DNA of 24,962 nucleotides from a virus. Positions 4,064 to 15,414 of the stretch are shown here, one piece after another; position 1 is the first letter of the stretch, and each line of letters begins with the position of its first letter. The notes below the pieces were generated by a model. It saw only the letters and a program-made list of their open reading frames with translations. It was not told the DNA's origin and searched no databases. Location of the stretch: positions 1 to 24,962 of the IMG/VR virus record IMGVR_UViG_3300042305_001027; one strand, given 5' to 3'. The position numbers and the translations under genes were made by a program.

Positions 4064-4161
4064 AGTAACTCTAGTATACAATATGGGGCTGCTGGTATAC
4101 ACCCATATTTAGATAACTAGATATGAACATTATATGAATATACGCCGTACTGAAGTGCTAA

Positions 4162-5809: not shown

Positions 5810-5825
5810 TGTGAGCAAGGTCACA
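5810..5825. promoter_or_regulatory. CRP/GlxR-type palindrome
   Basis: TGTGA-gcaagg-TCACA, a perfect match to the CRP/GlxR consensus. Centre 72.5 bases before the first base of the -10 at 5890. Confidence 0.7.
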
Positions 5826-5866
5826 AAGATTTTTTTCAATTTATCCCATATGTCCGAATTGTCCCC

Positions 5867-5895
5867 TTGAAAATGTCAGTGGTGTGTGTTAGTAT
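5867..5895 (+). promoter_or_regulatory. TGTC-type promoter 1
   Basis: TTGAAA at 5867-5872, TGTCAG at 5874-5879, ten bases, TAGTAT at 5890-5895. The -35 to -10 spacer is 17. Drives the gene at 5933; the leader has AAAGAAAGG. Confidence 0.75.
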
Positions 5896-5932
5896 TCTAC
5901 TATAACAAACTAAAGAAAGGTTGGTTCACTAA

Positions 5933-6133
5933 ATGAATGAACAAACACTACTAACTAAACTAGGGTTCTCTACCCATTCCGCTATCCCCGCTTCTATCGT
6001 CTCAGATGAATGGGATAGACACGCTACCTGCGCTAAATGCGGGTTAGATATCTCAGCCTTTTGGGTTGATGATGAAGACCGCCTTAGCGGTTGGTCAGCA
6101 TGGAAAGCCCTATCGGGCTCATGCCAAGCGTGA
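5933..6133 (+). CDS. Small zinc-ribbon-like protein
   Basis: 66 residues, not recognised. HATCAKCGLDISAFWVDDED contains a CxxC knuckle; a lone Cys near the end (GSCQA) could add a ligand. Trp-rich C-terminal half. First accessory gene, alone behind promoter 1. The stop codon overlaps the next CRP-type palindrome, so it ends where the following control region begins. Confidence 0.7.
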   Translation: MNEQTLLTKLGFSTHSAIPASIVSDEWDRHATCAKCGLDISAFWVDDEDRLSGWSAWKALSGSCQA

Positions 6134-6144
6134 TACAAATCACA
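6129..6144. promoter_or_regulatory. CRP/GlxR-type palindrome
   Basis: CGTGA-tacaaa-TCACA, one mismatch to consensus; overlaps the stop codon of the preceding gene. Centre 52.5 bases before the -10 at 6189. Confidence 0.65.
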
Positions 6145-6154
6145 CACGCCTAAC

Positions 6155-6194
6155 GGCGTGTCGACTTGAAAATGTCGGTCAAGTCTGATAGTCT
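6155..6194 (+). promoter_or_regulatory. TGTC-type promoter 2 with GGCGTGTCG element
   Basis: GGCGTGTCGAC at 6155-6165 runs directly into TTGAAA (6166-6171), then TGTCGG 6173-6178, ten bases, TAGTCT 6189-6194; spacer 17. This is the most complete arrangement of the shared elements. Confidence 0.78.
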
Positions 6195-6308
6195 TAAGAC
6201 ATAGAAAATTAAATAAGAATTAAAGGGTGTGAGCCTTAGCAAATAATCCGAAAGGTGAGCCTAAGCAAATAAAACCCTAAAAGACAAACTAAAAAGAAAG
6301 GGGACAAA

Positions 6309-6509
6309 ATGTCCGCAAATGTCTACTCAATCGAAAGCCTCTTAGTAGGAAAAACCTATCGCTCTAAAACCCTAACGGGTGAAATTGTATCCGCCGAAAA
6401 GCACCCTCATGCCGTATGGTATGAAAACGCTGAGGCGTATCTTGTAGAGGTTCGCAATCCGAACTCATTCCGTAATTCATTCCGCACAATAGCGGTTAGT
6501 GTGAACTAA
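6309..6509 (+). CDS. Small protein, paralogue of the 9638 gene product
   Basis: 66 residues. Shares with the protein at 9638-9853 the pattern YSI..LLV...Y....L...G.I..AEK, an EA..V..R segment and a TIAV/TVAV end, so the two are paralogues. Likely a small beta-rich domain; function unknown. AGAAAGGGG precedes the ATG. Its last codons form half of the next CRP-type palindrome. Confidence 0.7.
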   Translation: MSANVYSIESLLVGKTYRSKTLTGEIVSAEKHPHAVWYENAEAYLVEVRNPNSFRNSFRTIAVSVN

Positions 6510-6515
6510 ATCACA
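6500..6515. promoter_or_regulatory. CRP/GlxR-type palindrome
   Basis: TGTGA-actaaa-TCACA, perfect. Overlaps the stop codon of the previous gene. Centre 52.5 bases before the -10 at 6560, the same distance as at promoter 2. Confidence 0.72.
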
Positions 6516-6525
6516 CAAACGCTAC

Positions 6526-6565
6526 GGCGTGGCGGCTTGAAAATGTCGCCCCCGTAGTGTAGTCT
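6526..6565 (+). promoter_or_regulatory. TGTC-type promoter 3 with GGCGTG element
   Basis: GGCGTGGCGGC then TTGAAA at 6537-6542, TGTCGC 6544-6549, ten bases, TAGTCT 6560-6565; spacer 17. Drives the three-gene unit 6603-7111. Confidence 0.77.
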
Positions 6566-6602
6566 AAAGACATAACAAACTAAAAGAATAGGAAATAAAT
6601 AA

Positions 6603-6770
6603 ATGAAAATCACATACTCAATCTGGGATGGTGCTCAACTTCTAGGCACTGGCTTCACCGCTTCTTCACCTGAAGAAATGAACATTTTTGTAACTGAACT
6701 ACAAAAAGTTTCTAAGAATGTCGTAGCGCATATGCGTAAGGTCGAACAAACTAACGGAAAGGATAACTAA
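6603..6770 (+). CDS. Small hypothetical protein
   Basis: 55 residues (MKITYSIWDGAQLLGTGFTA...), not recognised. Begins with beta strands, then a helix rich in Glu, Lys and Gln. AGAATAGGAA precedes the start. First of three closely spaced genes; four bases separate its stop from the next ATG. Confidence 0.6.
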   Translation: MKITYSIWDGAQLLGTGFTASSPEEMNIFVTELQKVSKNVVAHMRKVEQTNGKDN

Positions 6771-6774
6771 TAAA

Positions 6775-6939
6775 ATGGAAATTCAAATAGAATTCTCAAA
6801 ATGGGGCTTCGGCTTCTATTCTGATTTTATTGCTCTAGATTTCACATGGGGATTTCTTGGCTCCGTTGTTGTAATTTATTTTGTAAATAAAATTCTAAAG
6901 CGTAATGATATCAAACTATTTAGAAAGCGTAATAAGTAA
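6775..6939 (+). CDS. Small single-pass membrane protein
   Basis: 54 residues with one hydrophobic segment at about 24-42 (WGFLGSVVVIYFVNKI) and a strongly basic tail (KRNDIKLFRKRNK), which predicts N-out/C-in topology. Not recognised. Second gene of a three-gene unit. Confidence 0.6.
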   Translation: MEIQIEFSKWGFGFYSDFIALDFTWGFLGSVVVIYFVNKILKRNDIKLFRKRNK

Positions 6940-6940
6940 A

Positions 6941-7111
6941 ATGATGACTAGAAAAGACTATATAACCGCTGCTGATATTTTGAATCAGGCTTATCCAGAA
7001 AATCCCGATTTGATTTTGGAAATGGCTTCGGATTTCTCTGACTATTTCGCAAAGGATAATCCTAGATTTTCCCGCCCTCGATTTTTTGAGGCAGTCAAAA
7101 AAGGCTGGTGA
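6941..7111 (+). CDS. Small hypothetical protein
   Basis: 56 residues from MMTRKDYITAADIL; an in-frame ATG 36 bases upstream lies inside the preceding gene and is less likely. Helical, with aromatic-rich end (FSDYFAKDNPRFSRPRFF). The pattern of a helix, then 'F..DNPRFSRPRF..A' is common in small phage proteins of unknown role. Its stop codon overlaps a weak CRP-type palindrome. Confidence 0.6.
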   Translation: MMTRKDYITAADILNQAYPENPDLILEMASDFSDYFAKDNPRFSRPRFFEAVKKGW

Positions 7112-7122
7112 GATAACTCACA
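7107..7122. promoter_or_regulatory. Weak CRP/GlxR-type palindrome
   Basis: GGTGA-gataac-TCACA, one mismatch, overlapping a stop codon. It is about 190 bases from the next -10, so if used it is not at an activating distance. Confidence 0.35.
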
Positions 7123-7131
7123 AAACTGATC

Positions 7132-7181
7132 GGCGTGTCGCCTTGACAAAAGCTGCGACACGCCCGACAGCGGCGGGCCTG
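7132..7181 (+). repeat. Inverted repeat and 27-base GC-rich block
   Basis: GGCGTGTCGC (7132-7141) and GCGACACGCC (7155-7164) form a perfect 10-bp inverted repeat around a loop containing TTGACA. The right arm begins a 27-base block (7155-7181) also found at 9406-9432 and 10691-10717; within it GCCCG/CGGGC can form a second small hairpin. It follows an operon end, so a terminator without a T-run is possible. Confidence 0.65.
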
Positions 7182-7226
7182 TGTCCGAAATGTCCGATTT
7201 AAGACGATTTGAAAAGCCCCCAGAAA

Positions 7227-7242
7227 TGTGGTGTAAATCACA
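7227..7242. promoter_or_regulatory. CRP/GlxR-type palindrome
   Basis: TGTGG-tgtaaa-TCACA, one mismatch. Centre 62.5 bases before the -10 at 7297. Confidence 0.6.
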
Positions 7243-7280
7243 AAAATAGTTTTGCGACACGCCCGAAAAACGGGTCAAAA

Positions 7281-7302
7281 TGTCAGTGGTCTATGTTAGA
7301 CT
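7281..7302 (+). promoter_or_regulatory. TGTC-type promoter 4
   Basis: TGTCAG 7281-7286, ten bases, TAGACT 7297-7302. The -35 position reads GTCAAA. Drives 7355 and 7540. Confidence 0.72.
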
Positions 7303-7354
7303 TCTAGGTATAGAAGGTTGAGAAAGGTTCTCAACAAGAAAGGTAGGTCAGAAA

Positions 7355-7537
7355 ATGACTACACTAATAAAAGAAATAACATTGGAAAATGTTTCCGTTG
7401 ATGAAGCAAACTTGATTGTTTGCGTGTTTTGCTCAGACTACGCAGGAGAAGTTTTCTGCGGTAAGTGTAATGAATACAAGGGAATAATGACCCTTGGTGA
7501 GTGGTTAGCATACACTCAAGAAAGTTGGGTGTTGTAA
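7355..7537 (+). CDS. Small zinc-ribbon protein
   Basis: 60 residues. Two CxxC knuckles, CVFC and CGKC, eight residues apart in the middle, are a textbook compact zinc ribbon. The rest is not recognised. AAGAAAGG upstream supports the start. Two bases separate its stop from the next ATG, and the next protein also carries a zinc-type motif. Confidence 0.7.
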   Translation: MTTLIKEITLENVSVDEANLIVCVFCSDYAGEVFCGKCNEYKGIMTLGEWLAYTQESWVL

Positions 7538-7539
7538 AA

Positions 7540-7755
7540 ATGGCTAACTTAGAAATTTTTGAAATGAATGAAAATGGTGCTGGTTGGGTATCATTAGAAA
7601 ATGCTTCCGCTTCTACTAAACTAGATTTGGAAATTGCTCTGCTAACTAAAGCAGAAGTAAAAATGTTATGCTTCAAGTGCCACATTGAAATTCCTCGTGG
7701 TAATGTTTGCGTAAATCATAAAAATGTTCGTGGTGCGGTTTATTTTTCAGAATAA
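7540..7755 (+). CDS. Small Cys/His protein
   Basis: 71 residues from the ATG at 7540; an in-frame GTG at 7501 lies inside the previous gene and lacks support. CFKCHIEIPRGNVCVNH provides four metal ligands (C-x2-C, C-x2-H) in the C-terminal third. The N-terminal part is acidic and helical. Function unknown. Confidence 0.68.
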   Translation: MANLEIFEMNENGAGWVSLENASASTKLDLEIALLTKAEVKMLCFKCHIEIPRGNVCVNHKNVRGAVYFSE

Positions 7756-7777
7756 AAAAAATAAAAAATAAATTAGC

Positions 7778-7847
7778 GGCGTGTTAGCTTGACATTTCGC
7801 TAAAAAGCGGCGGCCCTGTGGATAACTTTTTGTCAATACGACACGCC
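7778..7847. repeat. Opposed GGCGTGT..TTGACA elements
   Basis: GGCGTGTTAGCTTGACA at 7778-7794 faces its reverse form TGTCAATACGACACGCC at 7831-7847, making a large imperfect inverted repeat. A single reverse DnaA-box-like TGTGGATAA lies between them at 7817-7825. The stretch is non-coding. Confidence 0.55.
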
Positions 7848-7867
7848 GTGAAATCGCTGGAAATTTT

Positions 7868-7916
7868 TGTGATTTCGATCACAATGTGATGTAGGTCATA
7901 TGTGATGTGGCTCACA
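7868..7916. promoter_or_regulatory. Three tandem CRP/GlxR-type palindromes
   Basis: 7868-7883 (TGTGA-tttcga-TCACA, perfect), 7885-7900 (TGTGA-tgtagg-TCATA, one mismatch) and 7901-7916 (TGTGA-tgtggc-TCACA, perfect). Centres are 90.5, 73.5 and 57.5 bases before the -10 at 7966; the middle site has the usual phase. Confidence 0.72.
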
Positions 7917-7949
7917 ATGTCCGATTTGACCGATTTTTAGGGGTCAAAA

Positions 7950-7971
7950 TGTCAGACCCCCCTGCTAGAAT
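7950..7971 (+). promoter_or_regulatory. TGTC-type promoter 5
   Basis: TGTCAG 7950-7955, ten bases, TAGAAT 7966-7971. The -35 position reads GTCAAA. Drives 8006 and 8293. Confidence 0.75.
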
Positions 7972-8005
7972 AGTGGCATAACAAAAAGAAAGGTTAGGTA
8001 ATAAA

Positions 8006-8278
8006 ATGACTAACACTAAAGTAAATAAGTGTAAAGCAAACGATTGCTCACACTCTAAAAAATTCATAGACCGCTATGATGTAATAGATAACAAGGTTAT
8101 CCGTAAGGATAATCATAAATGGCACTTCTGCCAGACTTGCGATAAAGTAGTTCATAAAGACTACATAAATTATCACGAAATGCGTTGTAAAATCTTTCAC
8201 GATTTACAAAAAAATTGTATAGAAAAAAACCACTATGAACAAGGTGTTCATAGCACAGGCGTTGCCTGTAATCTCTAA
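8006..8278 (+). CDS. Cys/His-rich zinc-binding protein
   Basis: 90 residues, basic. Cysteines and histidines are clustered: CKANDCSHSKK near the N-terminus, then HFCQTCDKVVHKDYINYHEMRC, enough ligands for one or two zinc sites. Such an arrangement suggests nucleic-acid or protein binding, but no family was recognised. AAGAAAGG in the leader supports the start. Its promoter has three CRP-type sites, the most in the window. Confidence 0.7.
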   Translation: MTNTKVNKCKANDCSHSKKFIDRYDVIDNKVIRKDNHKWHFCQTCDKVVHKDYINYHEMRCKIFHDLQKNCIEKNHYEQGVHSTGVACNL

Positions 8279-8292
8279 GAAAGGAGAAAGTA

Positions 8293-8385
8293 ATGTCAGA
8301 TTATCTTGATTATCTTGATGAAATCTACGAGGAACTCGTAGAGGAATTTGGACACGAAATCGAGTCCAATTGTATCCACGAGTAA
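8293..8385 (+). CDS. Very small acidic protein
   Basis: 30 residues (MSDYLDYLDEIYEELVEEFG...), almost entirely a negatively charged helix. AAGGAGAAAG precedes the ATG, a good Shine-Dalgarno, which makes this frame credible despite its size. Could be a DNA mimic or peptide inhibitor; this is a guess. Confidence 0.55.
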   Translation: MSDYLDYLDEIYEELVEEFGHEIESNCIHE

Positions 8386-8388
8386 TCG

Positions 8389-8404
8389 TGTGATACAAAT
8401 CACA
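8389..8404. promoter_or_regulatory. CRP/GlxR-type palindrome
   Basis: TGTGA-tacaaa-TCACA, perfect. Centre 51.5 bases before the -10 at 8448. Confidence 0.72.
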
Positions 8405-8431
8405 CCCCGACACGGCGGGAAATCCCCAAAA

Positions 8432-8453
8432 TGTCAGCCCCCAATGCTACAAT
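8432..8453 (+). promoter_or_regulatory. TGTC-type promoter 6
   Basis: TGTCAG 8432-8437, ten bases, TACAAT 8448-8453; no recognisable -35 box (CCCAAA). Drives the five-gene chain 8479-9387. Confidence 0.72.
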
Positions 8454-8478
8454 TATTACCTAAAGAAAGGAAGTCAAA

Positions 8479-8661
8479 ATGACTTATCAAGTAAGACTAG
8501 AAACCTTCAATGGTTCTGTAAAAACTCTATCCCTGCCCTCTAAAGGTGCGGTTGCTCAATTCGTATCAACTTATCCCGACACTCTCCCTGTCGGTATCTC
8601 TGTAAAGTTTGATTGTGATGTGCTTTCAATTCGTGGAGTATTGAAAGGTCGTAAGAAATAA
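8479..8661 (+). CDS. Small hypothetical protein
   Basis: 60 residues, not recognised; alternating pattern of a small beta-rich domain (YQVRLETFNGSVKTLSLPSK) with a basic end. AAAGAAAGG precedes the ATG. First gene of a chain in which the next two starts overlap stop codons by one base. Confidence 0.63.
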   Translation: MTYQVRLETFNGSVKTLSLPSKGAVAQFVSTYPDTLPVGISVKFDCDVLSIRGVLKGRKK

Positions 8662-8849
8662 TGGAACTCTCAACACTAAACGAAATCGGAGATTTATTTA
8701 GGAAACTTGAGGAAAAAAAGTTTCCTAATAGTTCTCTAAACTCTACAACTTCAATGGCTCGTCAAATCGGCACAATGTCGGTTTTTATTTCTGAAAAGAA
8801 TGCTAAGAAAATTATCAAAATGCTACAACAAGAAATGGAAAATAACTAA
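8661..8849 (+). CDS. Small hypothetical helical protein
   Basis: 62 residues, charged and helical at both ends with a Ser/Thr/Asn-rich centre. Start codon shares one base with the previous stop (TAATG), as does the next gene with this one. Not recognised. Confidence 0.6.
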   Translation: MELSTLNEIGDLFRKLEEKKFPNSSLNSTTSMARQIGTMSVFISEKNAKKIIKMLQQEMENN

Positions 8850-9001
8850 TGAAAAAAAATATTCTAATCTCCTATGTCGTGGAAGCCGACACCGATTTAT
8901 CCGCTATCTTTGCCCTGAATAAATCTCTCCGCTATTTGCCTGATAGCGAACTAATCAAGTTTGACGCTTTCGAAGTTCTAGATGTTGAGGAGAATAAGTA
9001 A
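8849..9001 (+). CDS. Small hypothetical protein
   Basis: 50 residues (MKKNILISYVVEADTDLSAI...), not recognised. The beta-alpha-beta-like pattern resembles a ferredoxin-type mini-domain. Coupled on both sides by TAATG overlaps. A GGAG within its end serves the next gene. Confidence 0.6.
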   Translation: MKKNILISYVVEADTDLSAIFALNKSLRYLPDSELIKFDAFEVLDVEENK

Positions 9002-9270
9002 TGATAAGCACCGCTCTAAAAATTCAAGACGCAACTCAAGAAGCGTTTCAAGATGAACAAGTAATGCAGATGGCTGCTGCTATTTTTCAAATGCGAAATG
9101 ATGTTGATAATGACACAATGGCGAGAATGTTATTTGAATATTCCGCAACTCTTTCTGCGCTAACTGCAACTTTGGTTAGCCACGCAATTTTATCTGAAAC
9201 TCAAATGCACGAAATGATTTCAGAAATAAATGAAATTGAAAATATTTCTAAAGAAGTTTTAGGAGAATAA
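9001..9270 (+). CDS. Small hypothetical helical protein
   Basis: 89 residues, almost all helix, Met-rich and acidic (MQMAAAIFQMRNDVDNDTMA...). Hydrophobic stretch ATLSALTATLVSHAIL could pack in a helical bundle but is not a clear membrane segment. TTGAGGAG gives a good Shine-Dalgarno. Not recognised. Confidence 0.63.
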   Translation: MISTALKIQDATQEAFQDEQVMQMAAAIFQMRNDVDNDTMARMLFEYSATLSALTATLVSHAILSETQMHEMISEINEIENISKEVLGE

Positions 9271-9273
9271 AAA

Positions 9274-9387
9274 ATGACAACAAATAGAATTCTAACAACA
9301 CTCGTTCAAATAATTTTGGCGGGTGTAACAATTCCACTTTTAGTTTTAGCAATAAAAGATTTCAAAGCTGATCTAAAAAAAGAATAG
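9274..9387 (+). CDS. 37-residue membrane protein
   Basis: One transmembrane segment at about 6-26 (ILTTLVQIILAGVTIPLLVL) followed by a charged tail. TTAGGAG precedes the ATG. Last gene of the chain from promoter 6. Function unknown. Confidence 0.6.
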   Translation: MTTNRILTTLVQIILAGVTIPLLVLAIKDFKADLKKE

Positions 9388-9405
9388 TTCAACTTTCAAC
9401 TAATT

Positions 9406-9432
9406 GCGACACGCCCGACAGCGGCGGGCCTG
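9406..9432 (+). repeat. 27-base GC-rich block, copy 2
   Basis: Identical to 7155-7181. Contains GCCCG/CGGGC arms that can form a hairpin (9413-9429). It follows the operon end at 9387. Confidence 0.65.
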
Positions 9433-9463
9433 CCCGAAATGTCCGTTTTACGCATTATGTACG

Positions 9464-9484
9464 ATTACGTGGAATTGCCAGAAT
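9464..9484 (+). repeat. ATTACG..GCCAGAAT element
   Basis: ATTACGTGGAATTGCCAGAAT, a short version of an element also seen at 14495, 16237, 19306, 19372 and 19606. Confidence 0.4.
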
Positions 9485-9499
9485 TTTTTTGAAATTTAC

Positions 9500-9516
9500 G
9501 GCGTGTCGACTTGACA
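9500..9516 (+). repeat. GGCGTGTCG..TTGACA element
   Basis: GGCGTGTCGACTTGACA. TTGACA has no -10 at a usual distance here, so it may be a protein site or promoter remnant. Confidence 0.5.
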
Positions 9517-9525
9517 GCCAGATCT

Positions 9526-9541
9526 TGTGAGATTTATCACA
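9526..9541. promoter_or_regulatory. CRP/GlxR-type palindrome
   Basis: TGTGA-gattta-TCACA, perfect. Centre 72.5 bases before the -10 at 9606. Confidence 0.7.
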
Positions 9542-9589
9542 CGGCTGAGCGTCTTACTATTTGGAATTACTCGCTAGTAAGTAGAGAAA

Positions 9590-9611
9590 TGTCAGTCGGG
9601 TCGTGTAAAAT
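9590..9611 (+). promoter_or_regulatory. TGTC-type promoter 7
   Basis: TGTCAG 9590-9595, ten bases, TAAAAT 9606-9611; no -35 box. Drives 9638. Confidence 0.68.
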
Positions 9612-9637
9612 TGTAGGTATAAAGAAAGGAAAAACTA

Positions 9638-9853
9638 ATGAGAGCATATTCCATAGTTGATTTGCTAGTAGATACTTACTATGCCCCACAATCCCTATCC
9701 CGCCGTTTCAACGGAGGTATTATCAACCACGCAGAAAAGCGTGAAGATGTCTATCCACCCGAAGGCTATGAAGCCTTCGCTATTCGCTATCGCCCAACGG
9801 GTCGTCTAAATGACCAATGGGCAACAGTAGCCGTCAGAATAACCGACTACTAA
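9638..9853 (+). CDS. Small protein, paralogue of the 6309 gene product
   Basis: 71 residues. Aligns with the 6309 product through YSI..LLV, a G.I..AEK segment, EA......RP and the TVAV.I end, with an insertion of a few residues. As there, it is first and alone behind its own promoter. AAAGAAAGG supports the start. The stop codon abuts the next TGTC motif. Confidence 0.7.
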   Translation: MRAYSIVDLLVDTYYAPQSLSRRFNGGIINHAEKREDVYPPEGYEAFAIRYRPTGRLNDQWATVAVRITDY

Positions 9854-9854
9854 A

Positions 9855-9876
9855 TGTCGGTGGGTTCTGATAGACT
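9855..9876 (+). promoter_or_regulatory. TGTC-type promoter 8
   Basis: TGTCGG 9855-9860, ten bases, TAGACT 9871-9876; begins two bases after a stop codon. No CRP-type site nearby. Drives 9901-10655. Confidence 0.7.
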
Positions 9877-9900
9877 TTATTCATAAAGAAAGGAAATAAA

Positions 9901-10062
9901 ATGTCTGCTATAAAAAGACTTATTGAAAATATACTCGCTTGCGATACTTGCTACGGCAAAGGATTTACAGGTTGGGTTTCTCCAGACGGGGACTATGATT
10001 TTGAGTATTGTGAGTGTAATCCTCACAATCTTGTTCTAGAAGGAATGGAAGTGGTGTTCTAA
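9901..10062 (+). CDS. DnaJ-like zinc-knuckle microprotein
   Basis: 53 residues. CDTCYGKGFTG is the CxxCxGxG half-knuckle of DnaJ-type zinc fingers; YCECNP supplies the second pair. This makes a single compact zinc module, with no J domain. May bind RNA or unfolded peptide; not demonstrated. AAAGGAAATAAA precedes the start. Overlaps the next start (TAATG). Confidence 0.68.
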   Translation: MSAIKRLIENILACDTCYGKGFTGWVSPDGDYDFEYCECNPHNLVLEGMEVVF

Positions 10063-10172
10063 TGGAATTGTTCTTATGCGATAAATGCGATACCCTTGCC
10101 ACAGTAGAAATGCGTGGCGATACACTAAAGATAACTAAATGCGCTTGCCTTGCGCTAGAATGGAAAGACTAA
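10062..10172 (+). CDS. 36-residue zinc-ribbon microprotein
   Basis: LCDKCDT near the start and TKCACLAL near the end supply four cysteines. Start and stop both overlap neighbours by one base (TAATG), which supports translation as part of a coupled string. Confidence 0.62.
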   Translation: MELFLCDKCDTLATVEMRGDTLKITKCACLALEWKD

Positions 10173-10381
10173 TGGAATATAACTACTCTCTTACAGTTTC
10201 CTATGACGGAAAACTATTTGGTGCGTATCGCTATACCGATATGCTTGAAGCCGTAGATGCTTGGAATAAATGCGTAGATTTTGGCGATGCTAAAGAATAC
10301 GCAACCTATAACTTGTCAGACCCAATGGGTAAAATGTATACAAAGAATTTCTATCGAAATGGAGAAGTAAATGGGAAGTAA
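10172..10381 (+). CDS. Small hypothetical protein
   Basis: 69 residues from the ATG at 10172, which overlaps the previous stop; an in-frame ATG at 10139 lies inside that gene. Tyr-rich, alternating beta pattern (YNYSLTVSYDGKLFGAYRY). Not recognised. Overlaps the next gene by 11 bases; AAATGGAGAAG within its end is the next Shine-Dalgarno. Confidence 0.62.
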   Translation: MEYNYSLTVSYDGKLFGAYRYTDMLEAVDAWNKCVDFGDAKEYATYNLSDPMGKMYTKNFYRNGEVNGK

Positions 10382-10655
10382 TCTATCAACAGAATTAGCG
10401 GATAAGGATTTGTTTCCTGATTTAGATTTGGAGACTGCGATTACTATTCAATTGCGTTCTAATCATTACCCGCCCGTTCCCCATTCAATGGTGCCCGTTT
10501 GTATCGAAGCACTTGACGCATACAATTCAGGCGAACACGATAAAGAAATTTCATTACCAGACGGAGTAACTTGGAGAAATAAAATTACTGCGCCAGCGAA
10601 TGCGATTATTGACGCTCACCACTTGTGGGAATGGGTAATCGAAAGCGAATTGTGA
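10371..10655 (+). CDS. Conserved-type actinophage protein of unknown function
   Basis: 94 residues. The NHYPPVPHSMVPVCIEALDA segment, then EISLPDGVTWR and a HHLWEW ending, match my memory of a small family widespread in actinophages with no known role. The conserved His/Trp residues near the end are notable. Good GGAG before the start. Last gene of the operon from promoter 8; its stop overlaps a weak CRP-type half site at 10651. Confidence 0.68.
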   Translation: MGSNLSTELADKDLFPDLDLETAITIQLRSNHYPPVPHSMVPVCIEALDAYNSGEHDKEISLPDGVTWRNKITAPANAIIDAHHLWEWVIESEL

Positions 10656-10674
10656 TCTAATTCATAATTGCTGC

Positions 10675-10717
10675 GGCGTGTCGACTTGACACGACACGCC
10701 CGACAGCGGCGGGCCTG
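10675..10717 (+). repeat. Inverted repeat and 27-base GC-rich block, copy 3
   Basis: GGCGTGTCG (10675-10683) and CGACACGCC (10692-10700) are a perfect 9-bp inverted repeat around a loop ending in TTGACA. The right arm starts the third copy of the GC-rich block (10691-10717, first base changed). Confidence 0.65.
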
Positions 10718-10766
10718 TAATGTCCGATTTATGAGCTTTACGTAGAAACGCCGAAATTTTGTGGAA

Positions 10767-10788
10767 TGTCAGTGGGTTATGCTAGACT
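10767..10788 (+). promoter_or_regulatory. TGTC-type promoter 9
   Basis: TGTCAG 10767-10772, ten bases, TAGACT 10783-10788. No -35 box. The start codon at 10797 is eight bases away, so the leader is at most a few bases. Confidence 0.7.
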
Positions 10789-10796
10789 AGTTTATT

Positions 10797-10934
10797 ATGA
10801 GAACGAAAAAAAATGCTGAGGAATTACGGCGACTTATGGAGTTACGCCGTAGTAATGCAGCCACGCCTGTAAAAAATAAAAAGGCGTATTCTCGCAAGCG
10901 CAAGCATAAATGTCGCCCCTATGGTGTAGAATAG
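10797..10934 (+). CDS. Small, very basic protein
   Basis: 45 residues with about 17 Arg/Lys (LRRLMELRRS, KKAYSRKRKHK), likely to bind nucleic acid. No Shine-Dalgarno; the -10 lies eight bases upstream, so it is nearly leaderless. The last codons contain the complete next promoter. Function unknown. Confidence 0.55.
   Translation: MRTKKNAEELRRLMELRRSNAATPVKNKKAYSRKRKHKCRPYGVE
10911..10932 (+). promoter_or_regulatory. TGTC-type promoter 10
   Basis: TGTCGC 10911-10916, ten bases, TAGAAT 10927-10932, lying inside the 3' end of the preceding gene. Drives 10957-11871. Confidence 0.7.
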
Positions 10935-10956
10935 AATAAAGAAAGAAAGGTGCCCC

Positions 10957-11676
10957 ATGAAACTAAAACGCTCTAATGATAGAAAGGTTGCAAATGCAGT
11001 CTCCCCAAATGGAAAAACCCCAACAATCGCCAACACTTTCGGTCTACCTGCTGGAAAAAATTTCTCGTGTCCTGGTGCCACTAGTGTTTGTGAAAGCGTT
11101 TGCTATGCAGGAAAACTCGAAAAAATCTACAAGGGAGTAAAGGCCACTCTTCTTCACAATTGGGAATTACTAAAAGACGCTGACTATGACACTATGGTGT
11201 CTCTTCTTGATGAAATGATTATTGATTTCAAGGCTGACTGTGTAAAGCGTAATGCAAAACAATTATTCCGTATCCATTGGGACGGAGATTTCTTTAACGA
11301 TACTTACACAATCGCATGGGCCGAAATTGTCCGCCGTCATCCCGACATTCAATTTTGGGTCTACACTCGTGTAAAGTCTGCGGCGGAATTGCTTAAGGGT
11401 ATCCCTAACCTATCTCTTTATTTCTCTACCGACGACGAAAACGTATCCATTGCGGAAGACTTAAAAATTAATCATGGTGTGCGCCTGGCATACTTAGGCA
11501 AAACGTTTGCGTTAACCGAAAACAAAATGAAAGAATTAACTGGCAAGGTTGGTGCAAAGTGCCCTGAAAATGCAAAACGTATTCCATTAATTTCTACAAA
11601 TGGCTCTGCATGTGTATCATGCGGGCTATGTGTTTATGGTAAGGCCGACATTCGATTTAGCGCAACTAAAAAATAA
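10957..11676 (+). CDS. GP88-like Cys-rich phage protein
   Basis: 239 residues. The N-terminus has SCPGATSVCESVCYAGKL (Cys38, 45, 49) and the C-terminus ACVSCGLC (Cys219, 222, 225) with a further Cys202. Between them lie FRIHWDGDFF and QFWVYTRVKS. This is the pattern of the phage gene-product-88 family as I recall it, whose function is not established. The clustered cysteines suggest one or two iron-sulfur or zinc sites, and the central strands look like an alpha/beta barrel. GAAAGG supports the start. First gene of a three-gene operon. Confidence 0.75.
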   Translation: MKLKRSNDRKVANAVSPNGKTPTIANTFGLPAGKNFSCPGATSVCESVCYAGKLEKIYKGVKATLLHNWELLKDADYDTMVSLLDEMIIDFKADCVKRNAKQLFRIHWDGDFFNDTYTIAWAEIVRRHPDIQFWVYTRVKSAAELLKGIPNLSLYFSTDDENVSIAEDLKINHGVRLAYLGKTFALTENKMKELTGKVGAKCPENAKRIPLISTNGSACVSCGLCVYGKADIRFSATKK

Positions 11677-11685
11677 GGAGCTCAA

Positions 11686-11787
11686 ATGAAACTATACAAT
11701 GCATATATGGCCCTCTTCATGGGTAATGAAGAACAACAACAAGCTGCACAAGAGTACTTAGATTCCTTGGGAGAGGATCAAGAGTAA
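11686..11787 (+). CDS. 33-residue hypothetical protein
   Basis: MKLYNAYMALFMGNEEQQQAA...: a Met/Leu-rich start then an acidic, Gln-rich helix. AAGGAG lies eight bases upstream. The following TTG begins directly after its stop. Confidence 0.58.
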   Translation: MKLYNAYMALFMGNEEQQQAAQEYLDSLGEDQE

Positions 11788-11871
11788 TTGGGTTACTTAT
11801 TATTAATAGCAGGAGCTGGGATCTTCCTGGTCCCCGCTTTTGTTGTTTATATTTTATACCGTAAGAGCTGA
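11788..11871 (+). CDS. 27-residue membrane peptide
   Basis: Starts at a TTG immediately after the previous TAA; GAGAGG upstream could serve. The product is a single hydrophobic segment (GYLLLIAGAGIFLVPAFVVY) with a basic end, ILYRKS. The composition argues for a real gene; the non-ATG start lowers confidence. Confidence 0.45.
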   Translation: MGYLLLIAGAGIFLVPAFVVYILYRKS

Positions 11872-11926
11872 GGCCCGCCCCGCCGCAAGGCGTTTGTCAA
11901 ATTACGACACTGTGATTTTTCCCACA
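11871..11926. promoter_or_regulatory. GC-rich element, reversed TTGACA element and CRP-type site
   Basis: AGGCCCGCCCCGC, then TTTGTCAAATTACGACAC (reverse form of the TTGACA element) and TGTGA-tttttc-CCACA (11911-11926). The palindrome centre is 72.5 bases before the -10 at 11991. A closely similar block lies at 13200-13255. Confidence 0.6.
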
Positions 11927-11974
11927 AAAGTTTTTTAGAAAATGTCCGATTTGTCCGTATTTGGATTTGCGCTC

Positions 11975-11996
11975 TGTCGGTCTGAAATGCTAAACT
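11975..11996 (+). promoter_or_regulatory. TGTC-type promoter 11
   Basis: TGTCGG 11975-11980, ten bases, TAAACT 11991-11996; no -35 box. Drives 12027. Confidence 0.7.
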
Positions 11997-12026
11997 ATTA
12001 TTACCAACAAACGAAAGGAAGCAAAA

Positions 12027-12176
12027 ATGGCTAAGACACCAAAAATCGGTGAAACCATTACAACCGCTCAGAGCAAAGTTTCTGGCGTTGTAAAGGAAGT
12101 CGTAAAGAACCCATCTGGCTCGGTGCGTGTTCGTCTTGATGTAGAGGGCGAAACTCGCTGGACTACTATCAAGTAG
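12027..12176 (+). CDS. Small basic beta-rich protein
   Basis: 49 residues. Its second half (SGVVKEVV..P....VRVRL....RWTTIK) resembles the end of the 12789 product, suggesting a duplicated small-barrel domain, possibly a nucleic-acid binder. ACGAAAGGAAG precedes the start. Monocistronic behind promoter 11. Confidence 0.62.
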   Translation: MAKTPKIGETITTAQSKVSGVVKEVVKNPSGSVRVRLDVEGETRWTTIK

Positions 12177-12233
12177 TTTATCAGATGAAACTGACCTGAG
12201 CAAGTCAATCAAAACTGCTCACCAACTTTATTC

Positions 12234-12255
12234 TGTCGGTAAGGTCTGATAGAAT
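12234..12255 (+). promoter_or_regulatory. TGTC-type promoter 12
   Basis: TGTCGG 12234-12239, ten bases, TAGAAT 12250-12255; no -35 box, no CRP-type site. Drives 12284. Confidence 0.7.
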
Positions 12256-12283
12256 AGTAATACCAACTAAGAAAGGAAACAAA

Positions 12284-12706
12284 ATGGCAAGAGGAAAAGC
12301 GATAAATGTAAAAATCGCAACACCCAAAGTTATCAAGGCTTTGGAAACTAAGTTAGCAGAAATCAAAAATGATTATGCTAAGCAAGATGAGAACGAGGCA
12401 AAGTATCAGAAGTCCGTTGAGAAATGGAACAAAGAAATTGCTAAGTTTGCCACAGCGCAAATCGCTAAGGCTCAAAATGTTCGCACGAACTATCGTCATT
12501 GGAACAACACTCTCAATGTTGATTTTGACTTGATTGTTGAGGAAAAGGATTTTCCTAAGCAACCTGAGCGTGATTTTGAGCAAATCCACCGCCACTCTTA
12601 CAATGAGATGGTAGAGGAAATTGAGAACGCTATTCGTATTCTCAAGATGACCGATGAGGAAGTAGTTTCTACTTCTACTTACAACGCTATCGCCCGATAC
12701 TTGTAA
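12284..12706 (+). CDS. Hypothetical coiled-coil protein
   Basis: 140 residues, highly charged. Residues about 15-75 are a long helix with coiled-coil character (ETKLAEIKNDYAKQDENEAK); the second half is acidic with EEIENAIRIL. Not recognised; an oligomeric or scaffold-like role is possible. AAGAAAGGAAA precedes the ATG. Followed by a GC-rich hairpin. Confidence 0.68.
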   Translation: MARGKAINVKIATPKVIKALETKLAEIKNDYAKQDENEAKYQKSVEKWNKEIAKFATAQIAKAQNVRTNYRHWNNTLNVDFDLIVEEKDFPKQPERDFEQIHRHSYNEMVEEIENAIRILKMTDEEVVSTSTYNAIARYL

Positions 12707-12712
12707 AATTGT

Positions 12713-12737
12713 GGGGGAGGGGTATTTGACCTCCCCC
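12713..12737 (+). terminator. GC-rich hairpin after the 12284 gene
   Basis: GGGGGAGG (12713-12720) and CCTCCCCC (12730-12737) with a 9-base loop. No T-run follows. The TTGACC -35 box of the next promoter lies in the loop and right arm. Confidence 0.6.
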
Positions 12738-12755
12738 CAACACATCTGATAAACT
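12726..12755 (+). promoter_or_regulatory. Promoter for the 12789 gene
   Basis: TTGACC 12726-12731, 18-base spacer, TAAACT 12750-12755. No TGTCRS element. ACGAAAGG follows as the ribosome site. Confidence 0.6.
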
Positions 12756-12788
12756 AAATAGTAAGCAAACAAACGAAAGGAAAAACGA

Positions 12789-12971
12789 ATGTCCCCAGTA
12801 TTCGGAAATAACAGCGATAGTTTCTATCGCAAGGGTGATGTATTCACCACAGGCAAGTCAGGTATCACAGGTCGCTTGGAGGAGATTGTTTCAGTTAGAC
12901 CAAATCTAACTAAGATTGCTCTTCGCACACCTAATAACCAACTTCGCTGGGCAATGGTAAAAATTGGCTAA
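12789..12971 (+). CDS. Small basic beta-rich protein
   Basis: 60 residues. TGRLEEIVSVRPNLTKIALR....LRWAMVKI aligns with the 12027 product (G..KEVV..P....VR...RW..IK), so the two are probably distant paralogues. Function unknown. GAAAGG supports the start. Confidence 0.65.
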   Translation: MSPVFGNNSDSFYRKGDVFTTGKSGITGRLEEIVSVRPNLTKIALRTPNNQLRWAMVKIG

Positions 12972-13200
12972 TTGCTAATCGACACAGTGGCAGTTTCGGG
13001 AATGTTCTCGCCATATGTCGTAAGTAAGAATTCCCACCTAATCTTCGGGATGGTGTCAACGGTGCACACAACTAAATTAATGGCACGATCTGTTCACCAT
13101 CCCGACTTCCCGTCCATGGGACCGACTCATGGAGCTGCAGCACACGTACAGTAAATGAATGCACGGGCCCTGGTTACCTTTCTTTCCAGGGCCCGCTGCA
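12972..13200 (+). other. Structured, probably non-coding stretch
   Basis: Part of a 381-base gap between genes. It is visibly more GC-rich than its surroundings. CGGGATGGTG (13046-13055) pairs with CACCATCCCG (13095-13104), TCCATG pairs with a nearby CATGGA, and a strong hairpin closes it at 13161-13199. A 60-codon frame (12972-13154) opens with TTG but has no Shine-Dalgarno and an unlikely composition, so a structured RNA is the better guess. Confidence 0.4.
13161..13199 (+). terminator. Strong GC-rich hairpin
   Basis: CGGGCCCTGG (13164-13173) and CCAGGGCCCG (13186-13195) form a perfect 10-bp stem with a 12-base loop, extendable by three pairs past a bulge. No T-run follows, so it may be a terminator or a structural RNA end. 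Confidence 0.6.
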
Positions 13201-13255
13201 GGCCCGCCCCGCAAAACTCCGTTTGTCAAGTTACGACGATGTGATTTTGCCCACT
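13200..13255. promoter_or_regulatory. Second copy of the GC-rich/TTGTCAA/CRP-type block
   Basis: AGGCCCGCCCCGC, TTTGTCAAGTTACGAC and TGTGA-ttttgc-CCACT (13240-13255) repeat the order seen at 11871-11926. The palindrome is degenerate; centre 69.5 bases before a TAGACT at 13317-13322. Confidence 0.5.
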
Positions 13256-13316
13256 GAAAAATGTCCGAATTGCCCTAGTTTGCCAATCTAACTAGACATA
13301 GCCCACCTATGTGTGC

Positions 13317-13322
13317 TAGACT
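13317..13322 (+). promoter_or_regulatory. -10 box for the DUF932 gene
   Basis: TGTGCTAGACT gives TAGACT with an extended -10 like the TGTC promoters, but the sequence 16 bases before it is GCCCAC rather than TGTCRS. Confidence 0.5.
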
Positions 13323-13352
13323 TGATAAGTATCCAATAGAAAGGAAATAAAA

Positions 13353-14384
13353 ATGGCTACAAATCTCGCTCATAAGCAAGAAGTAGAAAACGGCGATGTG
13401 TCGTTTGCTCTTGTTGAATCCCGTTCAAATCCCGCTTGGCACTCTTTTGCCAATAAGGTTTTTGATTCAGAATCTGGAGATGTTTCAATCTCTGAAATTA
13501 TGGAGGGTGCTAAACTCTCTAATTGGAATGTTCGTCTTGAAGATGTTGCGCCACTTGCGCCTCATCACAATTTCATTACTGATTCATTCCTTGTTGTTCG
13601 TGATAACCCATACACCGCTGGCAATACCGATGTGTTGTCTGTTGTAGGCTCACGCTATAAAGTCGTTCAGAATGAAGAACTATTTTCATTCGCAGAAAAT
13701 CTACACGACGGAAATCCCGATGTGAAAGTTGATTCTGCTGGCTCTCTAAAGCAAGGTCGCATTGTCTATGGCTCTTGGGCGTTGCCTAATCAACTAGTCA
13801 TTGACCCTAAAGGCGTAGCAGATACAACAAAATTGTATCTAATCGTTTGGACATCACACGACGGCTCTGTTGCTGTTCAGGCAGCAATTACACCTGTTCG
13901 TGTTCGTTGCCAAAATACGCTAAACCTAGCGATGAAATCTGCTAAGCAATCTTTCAAGATTCGCCACACGCAGACCGCAGATGGAAAGATTCTCGCTGCT
14001 CGTGAGGCTCTTGGTCTATCTGTTGCTTATTTCGATGAGTTTTCTAAGCAGGCTAATGGTCTGTTTGAATCTCAAATCAACGATAAGCAATTCTCTGACC
14101 TTATCCGCAACCTTTACCCAAAGCCTGAAAAAGACGCTAAGGGTGCGCTAAAGAAGTGGGAAAATAAAGTCGTTCTAATTGACGAACTTTATCATAACTC
14201 ACCAACTAACGCTGGTATCAAAGGCACAAAGTGGGGTGCGCTAAATGCTCTAACTGAGCGTTTAGATTATTTCCGTTCTGCTCGCAAGGGTAATACGGAA
14301 TCTCTTTCCGCTTCTGCTTCAGGGTTTGACCCTGTTATCACCGCTGAGAAAAATAAAATTCTCAAAGCGGTTTTAGCAATCTAA
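13353..14384 (+). CDS. DUF932 (phage/plasmid-like) protein
   Basis: 343 residues, the usual length. Matches the DUF932/TIGR03299 pattern: PAWHSFANKVF near the start, WNVRLEDVAPL, SVVGSRYKVVQNEELFSFAE, then VRCQNTLNLAM and FKIRHT in the middle. The family is common in phages and plasmids, and its function is unknown; a DNA-metabolism role is often suggested. GAAAGGAAATAAA precedes the ATG. Monocistronic and closed by a strong terminator, the largest gene of the accessory region. Confidence 0.85.
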   Translation: MATNLAHKQEVENGDVSFALVESRSNPAWHSFANKVFDSESGDVSISEIMEGAKLSNWNVRLEDVAPLAPHHNFITDSFLVVRDNPYTAGNTDVLSVVGSRYKVVQNEELFSFAENLHDGNPDVKVDSAGSLKQGRIVYGSWALPNQLVIDPKGVADTTKLYLIVWTSHDGSVAVQAAITPVRVRCQNTLNLAMKSAKQSFKIRHTQTADGKILAAREALGLSVAYFDEFSKQANGLFESQINDKQFSDLIRNLYPKPEKDAKGALKKWENKVVLIDELYHNSPTNAGIKGTKWGALNALTERLDYFRSARKGNTESLSASASGFDPVITAEKNKILKAVLAI

Positions 14385-14398
14385 AAAATTGCTAACAC

Positions 14399-14430
14399 GG
14401 GGGCGCAGAAATGCGCCCCTGTTTTATTTT
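14399..14430 (+). terminator. Intrinsic terminator after the DUF932 gene
   Basis: GGGGCGCA (14400-14407), GAAA tetraloop, TGCGCCCC (14412-14419), then TGTTTTATTTTT. The clearest plus-strand terminator in the window. Confidence 0.9.
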
Positions 14431-14494
14431 TAGCTGATCGCATTTCGATTTGACAAAATCAGAAAAAAGGGGCGGGTCTGACTGTTTATTTTAT

Positions 14495-14533
14495 CATTAC
14501 GTACGTATATGAAAATGCCCTGGAATTTGCAGA
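14495..14533 (+). repeat. ATTACG..AAAATGCCCTGGAAT element
   Basis: CATTACGTACGTATATGAAAATGCCCTGGAATTTGCAGA; the same ordered parts occur at 16237-16270. Confidence 0.45.
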
Positions 14534-14534
14534 A

Positions 14535-14556
14535 TGTCAGTGCCGTGGTGTAGGAT
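14535..14556 (+). promoter_or_regulatory. TGTC-type promoter 13
   Basis: TGTCAG 14535-14540, ten bases, TAGGAT 14551-14556; no -35 box. Drives the whiB-like gene and followers. Confidence 0.7.
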
Positions 14557-14582
14557 AGTAGTAAAGGATAGAAAGGTAAATT

Positions 14583-14789
14583 ATGAGTTGGCAATTAGAA
14601 GCCAGTTGTAGCGCAGACCAACACGACTTGTTTTTCTCGCAGGCAAAAGGTAAAATGGATAGAGCAATACAAATTTGTGGTTCGTGCTCTGTAAAGGGTG
14701 AGTGTCTCAAGTTTGCTATTGATGAAAAAGTAGAGTTCGGTATATTCGGTGGTCTCACACCGCAAGAAAGGAAAAAGAAATGGCTGTAG
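14583..14789 (+). CDS. WhiB-family transcription factor
   Basis: 68 residues. Four cysteines at 9, 32, 35 and 41 (C-x22-C-x2-C-x5-C) would hold a 4Fe-4S cluster; GIFGG at 53-57 is the WhiB G[IV]xGG turn that contacts sigma region 4, and RKKKW at the end is the basic DNA-binding tail. WhiB proteins bind the principal sigma factor and alter promoter choice near -35. This phage member is short but complete. It sits behind a TGTC-type promoter, so it could regulate itself. GAAAGG supports the start. Confidence 0.9.
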   Translation: MSWQLEASCSADQHDLFFSQAKGKMDRAIQICGSCSVKGECLKFAIDEKVEFGIFGGLTPQERKKKWL

Positions 14790-15001
14790 AAATGTTCACA
14801 GATAGTCTTGGGGAACATATCATGGGAGCAATTCAGGTTGATATTGAAGAGCACCTGTTTGAACAATGGAATAACACTAACCTAGATGAGGGTGTAGAAT
14901 ATGCGGAATGGCAATTCTTACAATTTGCACCTGATAGTGTCAAACAATCTTATAATGAATACTATGGCTATACAGAGAAAGATGAGTATTACCTATGCTA
15001 G
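14780..15001 (+). CDS. Small acidic hypothetical protein
   Basis: 73 residues, acidic and Tyr-rich at the end (NEYYGYTEKDEYYLC); not recognised. AAGGAAAAAG before the ATG lies inside the whiB-like gene, with a 10-base overlap, so it is translationally linked to it. Confidence 0.65.
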   Translation: MAVEMFTDSLGEHIMGAIQVDIEEHLFEQWNNTNLDEGVEYAEWQFLQFAPDSVKQSYNEYYGYTEKDEYYLC

Positions 15002-15168
15002 GATATCAACAGGAAGACTTAGATAGGATGATTAATGCTGTTCATGATGCTAAGTTATTCTATCTTAGACACCCGTCCGATTTAATGGACAAGACTCAGC
15101 TCAGATCAGATCTAGAGGATACTGTTAGTTTTCTCCAGGGCTTATGGGCGGAGGGGTATTTTGACTAG
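14995..15168 (+). CDS. Small helical hypothetical protein
   Basis: 57 residues (MLGYQQEDLDRMINAVHDAK...), two helices with LRHPSDLMDKTQLRSDLEDT between. Overlaps the previous stop by 7 bases. Not recognised. Confidence 0.6.
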   Translation: MLGYQQEDLDRMINAVHDAKLFYLRHPSDLMDKTQLRSDLEDTVSFLQGLWAEGYFD

Positions 15169-15259
15169 ACATAAGCAGTGTAAGCAATGCTACAATGGTA
15201 AGTACTACTTTTACAATGGCAAAGACGAACTCGTTGCTATTCCGTGCCCGTTTTGTTAG
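15161..15259 (+). CDS. 32-residue zinc-ribbon microprotein
   Basis: Starts at a TTG with GGAGGGG a few bases upstream, overlapping the previous gene by 8 bases. QCKQCYNGKYYFYNG and the terminal PCPFC give two CxxC knuckles 17 residues apart, a complete zinc ribbon and little else. Confidence 0.58.
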   Translation: MTRHKQCKQCYNGKYYFYNGKDELVAIPCPFC

Positions 15260-15267
15260 GAGATAAT

Positions 15268-15369
15268 ATGAGTAAAGAGTTTAGAGAACTTGTTGGAAAA
15301 GGTGTCCTAGGATTTCTAGGAATAAGTGCCATAGTTATATTTATCCTGTATAAAATATTTGTGGCCTAA
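15268..15369 (+). CDS. 33-residue membrane protein
   Basis: Charged start (MSKEFRELVGK) then one transmembrane segment (VLGFLGISAIVIFILYKIF). TAGGAG precedes the ATG. End of the operon from promoter 13. Confidence 0.62.
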   Translation: MSKEFRELVGKGVLGFLGISAIVIFILYKIFVA

Positions 15370-15375
15370 ATCACA
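15360..15375. promoter_or_regulatory. CRP/GlxR-type palindrome
   Basis: TGTGG-cctaaa-TCACA, one mismatch, overlapping a stop codon. Centre 41.5 bases before the -10 at 15409. Confidence 0.6.
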
Positions 15376-15385
15376 CCTACCCTAA

Positions 15386-15414
15386 TTGAAATTGTCCGCC
15401 CCTACTGCTAGGAT
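15386..15414 (+). promoter_or_regulatory. TGTC-type promoter 14, leaderless
   Basis: TTGAAA 15386-15391, TGTCCG 15393-15398, ten bases, TAGGAT 15409-15414; spacer 17. Six bases then the ATG at 15421. It joins both promoter classes of this window. Confidence 0.72.

Follow-up and report, generated by a model that had tools for sequence, protein, structure and literature searches.

A host protein of the CRP/GlxR family, acting with host RNA polymerase in a class-I-like manner, probably activates the phage promoters described here. Upstream of these promoters lie palindromes that are putative targets of a host regulator from the CRP family, of the actinobacterial CRP/GlxR type. Sitting 42–84 bp upstream of the -10 element and facing the same side of the DNA, this protein would activate host RNA polymerase through a flexible contact, as in class I CRP activation. 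Within one block of small genes, such sites would control about one TGTC promoter in two, giving the phage one set of genes that follows the state of the host and another that does not. The virus appears able to sense the metabolic state of its host with no sensor of its own; a host protein, activation, cAMP dependence and early or host-takeover timing are what we infer from the sequence features below. If this reading is correct, a widespread group of actinobacterial viruses senses host metabolic state via the CRP-family regulator of the host, with that regulator in control of about half the promoters of a single gene block.

Palindromes and TGTC promoters

The window is the whole stretch of DNA analysed (24,962 nt; positions 1 to 24,962 of IMG/VR record IMGVR_UViG_3300042305_001027). 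It contains 13 copies of the palindrome TGTGA-N6-TCACA when up to one mismatch is allowed, six of them perfect, where 0.76 are expected, and no shuffle of the window reached 13. The 108 non-redundant related phage loci contain 519 perfect copies, compared with at most 15 when the half-site letters are reordered and at most 12 for gap lengths other than 6. This directly computed enrichment, in the window and in the 108 loci, rules out chance or base composition as the source of the palindromes. The logo of the sites in relatives, TGTGAtnTwnaTCACA, agrees with the published GlxR motif, GTG-N8-CAC (PMC10033298), which the window sites also fit; the first-pass annotation had likewise claimed this consensus for GlxR of Corynebacterium. 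Identity in relatives is 92% in the palindrome arms, 79% in the spacer and 72% in the middle six bases.

The promoters consist of a weak -35 element, a fixed TGTC just 3' of it and a TGnTANAAT -10 element, the core element being TGTC(A/G)G and not the GTGTC (GACAC) motif of WhiA/WhiB-controlled promoters. The pattern TGTC-N12-TANNNT is present 17 times on the plus strand of the window and once on the minus strand, for an expected total of 3.6; other spacer lengths occur 1–3 times each. Plausible promoter positions are occupied by 14 of the 17 plus-strand copies, nine of which have a palindrome at 41.5–73.5 bp (Table 1). A recount reproduced this proportion, and all coordinates and distances, from the first-pass annotation; the sites listed there are real, but those at 7107 and 10651 are missing from its list. 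The palindrome observation is stronger than was reported there. The -35 element matches at 2.69 of 6 positions in promoters with a site and at 1.95 in those without, a difference in the reverse direction to what activator dependence would most simply predict.

For two window promoters that have no palindrome, most orthologues have none either (75 of 81 for promoter 9855, 84 of 85 for promoter 12234). Promoters orthologous to that of the DUF932 gene usually carry a site at 62.5 bp in relatives. The cassettes 6127–6213 and 6498–6584 are duplicates, 74% alike, and a degraded copy of site 11911 lies at 13240, so the nine window promoters are not fully independent. In two relatives analysed over their full length, direct computation shows the promoters gathered in a single block and sites to be rare elsewhere. 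The block consists of small genes and measures 10–16 kb, and about one in two of its TGTC promoters has a site.

Table 1. Palindromes, TGTC promoters and the WhiB-family gene in the window. Distances run from the palindrome centre to the first -10 base.
Feature	Position	Strand	Distance to -10 (bp)	Remark
Predicted CRP/GlxR-type palindrome TGTGAGCAAGGTCACA	5810..5825		72.5	to promoter 5874
TGTC-N12-TAGTAT promoter	5874..5895	+		ahead of ORF 5933
Palindrome CGTGATACAAATCACA	6129..6144		52.5	1 mismatch; to promoter 6173
TGTC promoter	6173..6194	+		ahead of ORF 6309; preceded by GGCGTGTCG and TTGAAA -35
Palindrome TGTGAACTAAATCACA	6500..6515		52.5	cassette duplicates that of 6129
TGTC promoter	6544..6565	+		ahead of ORF 6603
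Palindrome GGTGAGATAACTCACA	7107..7122		182.5	1 mismatch; to next -10
Palindrome TGTGGTGTAAATCACA	7227..7242		62.5	1 mismatch
TGTC promoter	7281..7302	+		ahead of ORF 7355
Palindrome triplet (7868, 7885, 7901)	7868..7916		90.5, 73.5, 57.5	abutting
TGTC promoter	7950..7971	+		ahead of ORF 8006
Palindrome TGTGATACAAATCACA	8389..8404		51.5	
TGTC promoter	8432..8453	+		ahead of ORF 8479
Palindrome TGTGAGATTTATCACA	9526..9541		72.5	
TGTC promoter	9590..9611	+		ahead of ORF 9638
TGTC promoter	9855..9876	+		no palindrome; ahead of ORF 9901
Palindrome TGTGATCTAATTCATA	10651..10666		124.5	1 mismatch; to promoter 10767
TGTC promoter	10767..10788	+		ahead of ORF 10797
TGTC promoter	10911..10932	+		no palindrome; ahead of GP88-family gene 10957
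Palindrome TGTGATTTTTCCCACA	11911..11926		72.5	1 mismatch
TGTC promoter	11975..11996	+		ahead of ORF 12027
TGTC promoter	12234..12255	+		no palindrome; ahead of ORF 12284
Degraded palindrome TGTGATTTTGCCCACT	13240..13255			2 mismatches; ahead of DUF932 gene 13353
TGTC promoter	14535..14556	+		no palindrome; ahead of whiB-like gene 14583
Phage WhiB-family protein	14583..14789	+		PF02467, E 2.3e-18
Palindrome TGTGGCCTAAATCACA	15360..15375		41.5	1 mismatch
TGTC promoter	15393..15414	+		ahead of ORF 15421

Helical register of the sites

In relatives, the palindromes lie 42–84 bp upstream of the -10 element of a rigid TGTC-N12-TANNNT promoter, and 421 of the 519 perfect sites are found 38–100 bp upstream of this pattern. 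The distances peak at 42.5, 52.5, 62.5, 72.5/73.5 and 83.5 bp, with near-empty valleys and a period of 10.3–10.4 bp, and the peaks fall at identical places when relatives are retrieved by DNA pattern alone. The first-pass annotation had staked its reading on enrichment and phasing in relatives; both are present. The window taken alone gives R 0.78 at 10.4 bp when only the site closest to each promoter is used (n=10, p ~0.001, the 124.5-bp site of promoter 10767 included) and R 0.585 at 10.4 bp for all 13 palindromes (p ~0.009). Phasing is thus suggestive in the window and overwhelming in the relatives, where the steps of about 10 bases described earlier hold; the "nearest or best-phased" sites from which those steps had been read are a selection, to be set against the lower R of the full set. 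Promoters without a scored site contain 92 sites with two mismatches, versus 28 for a control palindrome, and these too are phased (n=76; R 0.73, period 10.25 bp).

Some window cassettes are duplicated, as would be expected if the pattern were due to chance or to repeated copying of cassettes, the spacing being inherited and the phasing a by-product. Against this, the phase persists with a single modal distance per downstream-gene family (R 0.745 at 10.25 bp, n=70) and with one value per dissimilar spacer (R 0.70–0.76 at 10.05–10.4 bp, n=45 to 344), which exceeds every null; single-linkage clustering of spacers was discarded because it chained all of them into one. Distinct family-distance pairs give R 0.53, versus a null maximum of 0.198. 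The spacing within one orthologous promoter also shifts by whole helical turns: between orthologous promoters, differences of 9–11 or 19–21 bp are commoner than those of 4–6 or 14–16 bp. This origin is therefore highly improbable, and cassette duplication, though real for some pairs, is largely refuted as a general cause of the phasing. The natural promoters whose spacing changes by whole turns number in the hundreds and provide a test set for the interplay of CRP-type activators with actinobacterial RNA polymerase.

Not all sites are in phase. In the triplet at 7868–7916 only the 73.5-bp site is, those at 90.5 and 57.5 bp being out of phase, as had been noted for this fifth promoter. A minority class at 57.5/58.5 bp, half a turn off, comprises 51 promoters, in most of which it is the sole site; the 57.5-bp class is largely one promoter family, a circumstance that favours cassette copying.

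CRP and GlxR are also able to repress, and the host protein might repress from these sites, or merely bend or organise the DNA, with no activation; several sites at one promoter, as in the triplet, and the out-of-phase class would suit such a role. The core promoter is nearly free of sites, with a single one below 32 bp in the 108 related loci by direct count, so that activation fits and repression does not. For M. tuberculosis CRP, upstream sites go with activation and TSS-proximal ones with repression (PMC4117774), and TSS-proximal positions are empty here. Furthermore, strict phase to the -10 element is kept, of which simple occlusion has no need. Repression or bending is accordingly judged quite unlikely, and activation by the host protein is preferred.

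Candidate regulator

The 19 near-full-length relatives encode neither a cNMP-binding domain (PF00027) nor a Crp helix-turn-helix (PF13545), and class III cyclase (PF00211) and sigma-70 region 2 (PF04542) are absent from them; the positive controls were detected, with PF00027 and PF13545 found in the C. glutamicum control. In these relatives, then, neither a CRP nor a sigma-70 factor of phage origin was found, nor a class III cyclase. A phage-encoded protein unrelated in sequence to CRP might still bind the same palindrome and activate the phage's own promoters later in infection. These phages have many small ORFans, and 105 of 119 pattern-selected stretches carry early genes of the phage family of the window, so sites outside this family are very few. 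The nearest cultured relatives, the Streptomyces phages Samisti12 and Phredrick (Stanwilliamsviridae; terminase 57–67% identical, DUF932 ~50%, WhiB present), do not have the CRP-site array of the metagenomic lineage: in the 118 kb of Samisti12 there are four one-mismatch palindromes and no perfect one, together with five TGTC-N12-TAGNNT-like promoters on the minus strand. It is the metagenomic lineage that has the predicted CRP layer, either through gain in that lineage or through loss from the cultured phages. Nevertheless, half-site, 6-bp gap and inner consensus all match those of CRP/GlxR, and independent evolution of just the motif that a global regulator of actinobacteria uses is a less economical explanation, which, with the domain results, makes a phage-encoded binder unlikely compared with a host CRP/GlxR protein.

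The hosts of the virus family are probably freshwater actinobacteria. A host search via the PstS gene was uninformative, giving one match (32%), in a Bdellovibrionales genome, and none in an actinobacterial genome. Named phage DNA gave no match to the window, nor did named phages match the lineage-specific protein. A literature search covering mainly freely available papers found no report of GlxR/CRP sites in actinophages, and nothing useful on Nanopelagicales and CRP.

Comparison with known systems

The GlxR/Crp proteins of Corynebacterium, Mycobacterium and Streptomyces share the consensus of the sites, and upstream binding accompanies activation in M. tuberculosis (PMC4117774); the predicted targets here differ in being phage promoters. 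The closest precedent is provided by the NtcA sites of cyanophages. T4-like cyanophages have 1–16 predicted NtcA sites per genome, 8.9 on average, which are suggested to tap the nutrient-stress response of the host (Sullivan et al. 2010, PMC3037559); a helical-register analysis is not known to be part of that study. Both cases involve lytic phages that infect an abundant aquatic host and carry many predicted sites for a global regulator of that host from the CRP family, but regulator, signal, motif (NtcA, 2-oxoglutarate, GTA-N8-TAC) and phage group are different. The sites described here are, in contrast, limited to one small-gene block and one promoter type.

Class I CRP promoters of E. coli, which need the alpha C-terminal domain of RNA polymerase, share the palindrome and activation-compatible upstream positions ~10.4 bp apart; their series lies 49.5, 60 and 70 bp from the -10 element (positions -61.5, about -72, -82.5 and -92.5). 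The positions estimated here are -54.5, -64.5, -74.5 and -85, ~3 bp farther from the -10 element than in E. coli. The promoters of the window family also have the extra conserved TGTC between -35 and -10, and their host would be an actinobacterium. Whole-turn upstream spacing is shared with class I whereas the absolute E. coli register is not, so these promoters are described as working like class I and are not filed as members. The earlier proposal that host CRP/GlxR activates phage promoters is partly supported: activation from phased upstream sites is the reading with the best support, against which stand the register offset and the phase-breaking 57.5/58.5 class. The comparative data provide a concrete register, unlike that of E. 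coli, that can be tested.

The T4 middle promoters (MotA box, AsiA) resemble those described here, as an analogy only, in having a short element ~12 bp upstream of the -10 and a poor -35. WhiB family members bind sigma region 4, and WhiB is encoded in 19 of 19 near-full-length relatives, a parallel to AsiA that is likewise only an analogy. Rather doubtfully, the promoters might be composite switches, with host CRP/GlxR upstream, WhiB from either the phage or its host at sigma region 4, a TGTC-binding factor in place of the -35, and fixed inputs (GGCGTGTCG, ATGTCCGA and DnaA-box pairs). If so, a lytic phage would integrate the carbon, redox and replication state of its host at each promoter without a sigma factor of its own. 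The element GGCGTGTCG is strongly enriched, and in some promoters it is fixed ~29 bp before the -10.

Palindromes and TGTC promoters

The 24,962-bp virus record contains 13 CRP/GlxR-type palindromes (TGTGA-N6-TCACA, at most one mismatch), against 0.76 expected. Their phased placement upstream of TGTC promoters, as claimed in the first-pass annotation, is borne out, the phasing passing four controls for relatedness. Perfect sites number 519 and near-perfect ones 1,020 across 108 non-redundant loci; any other arrangement of these letters yields 15 at most, and gap lengths other than six give at most 12 copies. The inner consensus, TGTGAtnTwnaTCACA, is CRP/GlxR-like by its sequence. Nineteen near-full-length relatives carry 6–20 sites per genome; two relatives were read end to end, and their promoters are gathered in one block, with few sites beyond it, mostly one-mismatch copies. 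Early genes of this phage family are present in 105 of 119 stretches picked by DNA pattern alone, and the design is therefore almost exclusive to it.

The promoters (TGTC-N12-TANNNT, gap exactly 12 bases) number 17 on the plus strand of the window and one on the minus strand; other spacings occur one to three times each. The consensus across relatives is TTGaaA-a-TGTC(A/G)GT...TGnTAnAAT, with a pyrimidine-A step, likely the start site, 12 bases past the first -10 base. Across homologous regions the TGTC element shows 99.7% identity. It is located, nearly invariant, between the -35 and -10 of phages without sigma-70 region 2. On the minus strand of Samisti12, a cultured relative that infects Streptomyces, five such promoters occur, and no CRP palindromes were found there.

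Helical register

Distances from palindrome centre to first -10 base peak at 32.5 (few), 42.5, 52.5, 62.5, 72.5/73.5 and 83.5, with near-empty valleys; the same peaks appear in the pattern-selected stretches mentioned above, a separate set drawn from the viral collection as a whole. Phasing strength (R) is 0.745 at a period of 10.25 when each downstream-gene family contributes its modal value (n=70), 0.53 for distinct family-distance pairs (n=251; null maximum 0.198), about 0.70–0.76 for one value per dissimilar spacer (n=344 down to 45, all above null maxima), and 0.73, with unchanged phase, for two-mismatch sites in promoters otherwise counted as lacking a site (n=76). The strongest point for the register is that orthologous promoters keep the helix face at varying distances, the ORF 12027 family having 42.5, 52.5, 62.5, 72.5 and 83.5. 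From the inferred start, the register is about -54.5, -64.5, -74.5 and -85.

A class of 51 promoters, half a turn off, has a site at 56–59 bp, mostly as sole site, and needs its own explanation. Many come from one or two promoter families in which paired copies of DnaA-box-like TTATCCACA lie upstream and GCGACACGCC separates the site from the promoter. Of the three palindromes in the window's triple site, one is in phase and the other two are not.

Predicted activation by the host

In E. coli class I promoters, a CRP-family protein bound upstream of the -35 activates through flexible contacts, which therefore allow displacement by whole turns. The phage register is some 3 bp off that series and the -35 is slightly better in site-bearing promoters, so activation details may differ from E. 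coli. CRP sites of M. tuberculosis are associated with activation when they lie upstream and with repression when they are TSS-proximal (PMC4117774); TSS-proximal positions are virtually site-free in these phages. No CRP-type protein, class III cyclase or sigma-70 region 2 was found in the 19 near-full-length relatives, all of which have WhiB, a family with members that bind sigma-A region 4 (PMC6282962). Together, these features suggest that host CRP/GlxR and host polymerase would drive the phage promoters, perhaps with WhiB. The activation by host CRP/GlxR predicted earlier is supported in part: phased upstream sites and the failure to find a phage CRP in the 19 relatives favour it, and the E. 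coli offset and the 56–59 bp class count against it. The regulatory reading as a whole is likely; by analogy with GlxR, cAMP or energy state may be the signal.

Cyanophages likewise carry predicted sites for a CRP-family host regulator, in their case NtcA (PMC3037559). The literature searched, with few subscription journals in it, yielded no mention of actinophages carrying CRP/GlxR sites.

Relatives, host and other elements

IMG/VR is rich in relatives of the window, with a GC content of 35–40%. Streptomyces phages have DUF932 genes with about 50% identity to that of the window; in G006, a close relative whose DUF932 protein is 94% identical to the window's, the terminase reaches 67% identity to those of Stanwilliamsviridae. 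From WhiB, GC content and published whiB-bearing freshwater actinophages (PMC6802176; PMC10202952), we infer that low-GC freshwater actinobacteria may be the host.

Positions of features in the window
Feature	Position	Strand
TGTC-N12-TANNNT promoter block (type also in relatives)	5874-15414	
Triple palindrome site	7868-7916	
GGCGTGTCG copies	6155, 7132, 7156, 7255, 7839, 9407, 9500, 10675, 10692	
AATGTCCGATTT-like repeats upstream of promoters	7182, 9440, 10720, 11939, 13258	
28-nt repeat TGCGACACGCCCGACAGCGGCGGGCCTG, three copies	7154-7181, 9405-9432, 10690-10717	
Small whiB-like gene within promoter block	14583-14789	
DnaA-box cluster	19955-20031	
PstS-like phosphate-binding protein (host-like)	3026-4102	minus
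Hsp20 (host-like)	2525-2947	minus
Cobalamin adenosyltransferase (host-like)	20921-21448	minus
S-adenosylmethionine decarboxylase (host-like)	22177-22599	minus

The longer WhiB is in all relatives; the short whiB-like copy is shared, among those searched, with the relatives G005 and G006 only. The DnaA-box cluster lies between genes and may be a replication origin or a region bound by DnaA; it comprises four perfect TTATCCACA, which face both ways, and additional near copies. Four relatives (L009, L013, L014, L034) likewise have four boxes inside 150 bp. The TGCGACACGCCCGACAGCGGCGGGCCTG repeat is possibly a hairpin or terminator-like element. In relatives, ATGTCCGA is most frequent 36 and 45 bp upstream of the -10 and has a 10.4-bp periodicity of its own. 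GGCGTGTCG, with nine copies in the window against 0.05 expected, lies across relatives at fixed places about 29, 37.5 and 70.5 from the -10, and it contains GTGTC, complementary to the GACAC motif of WhiA.
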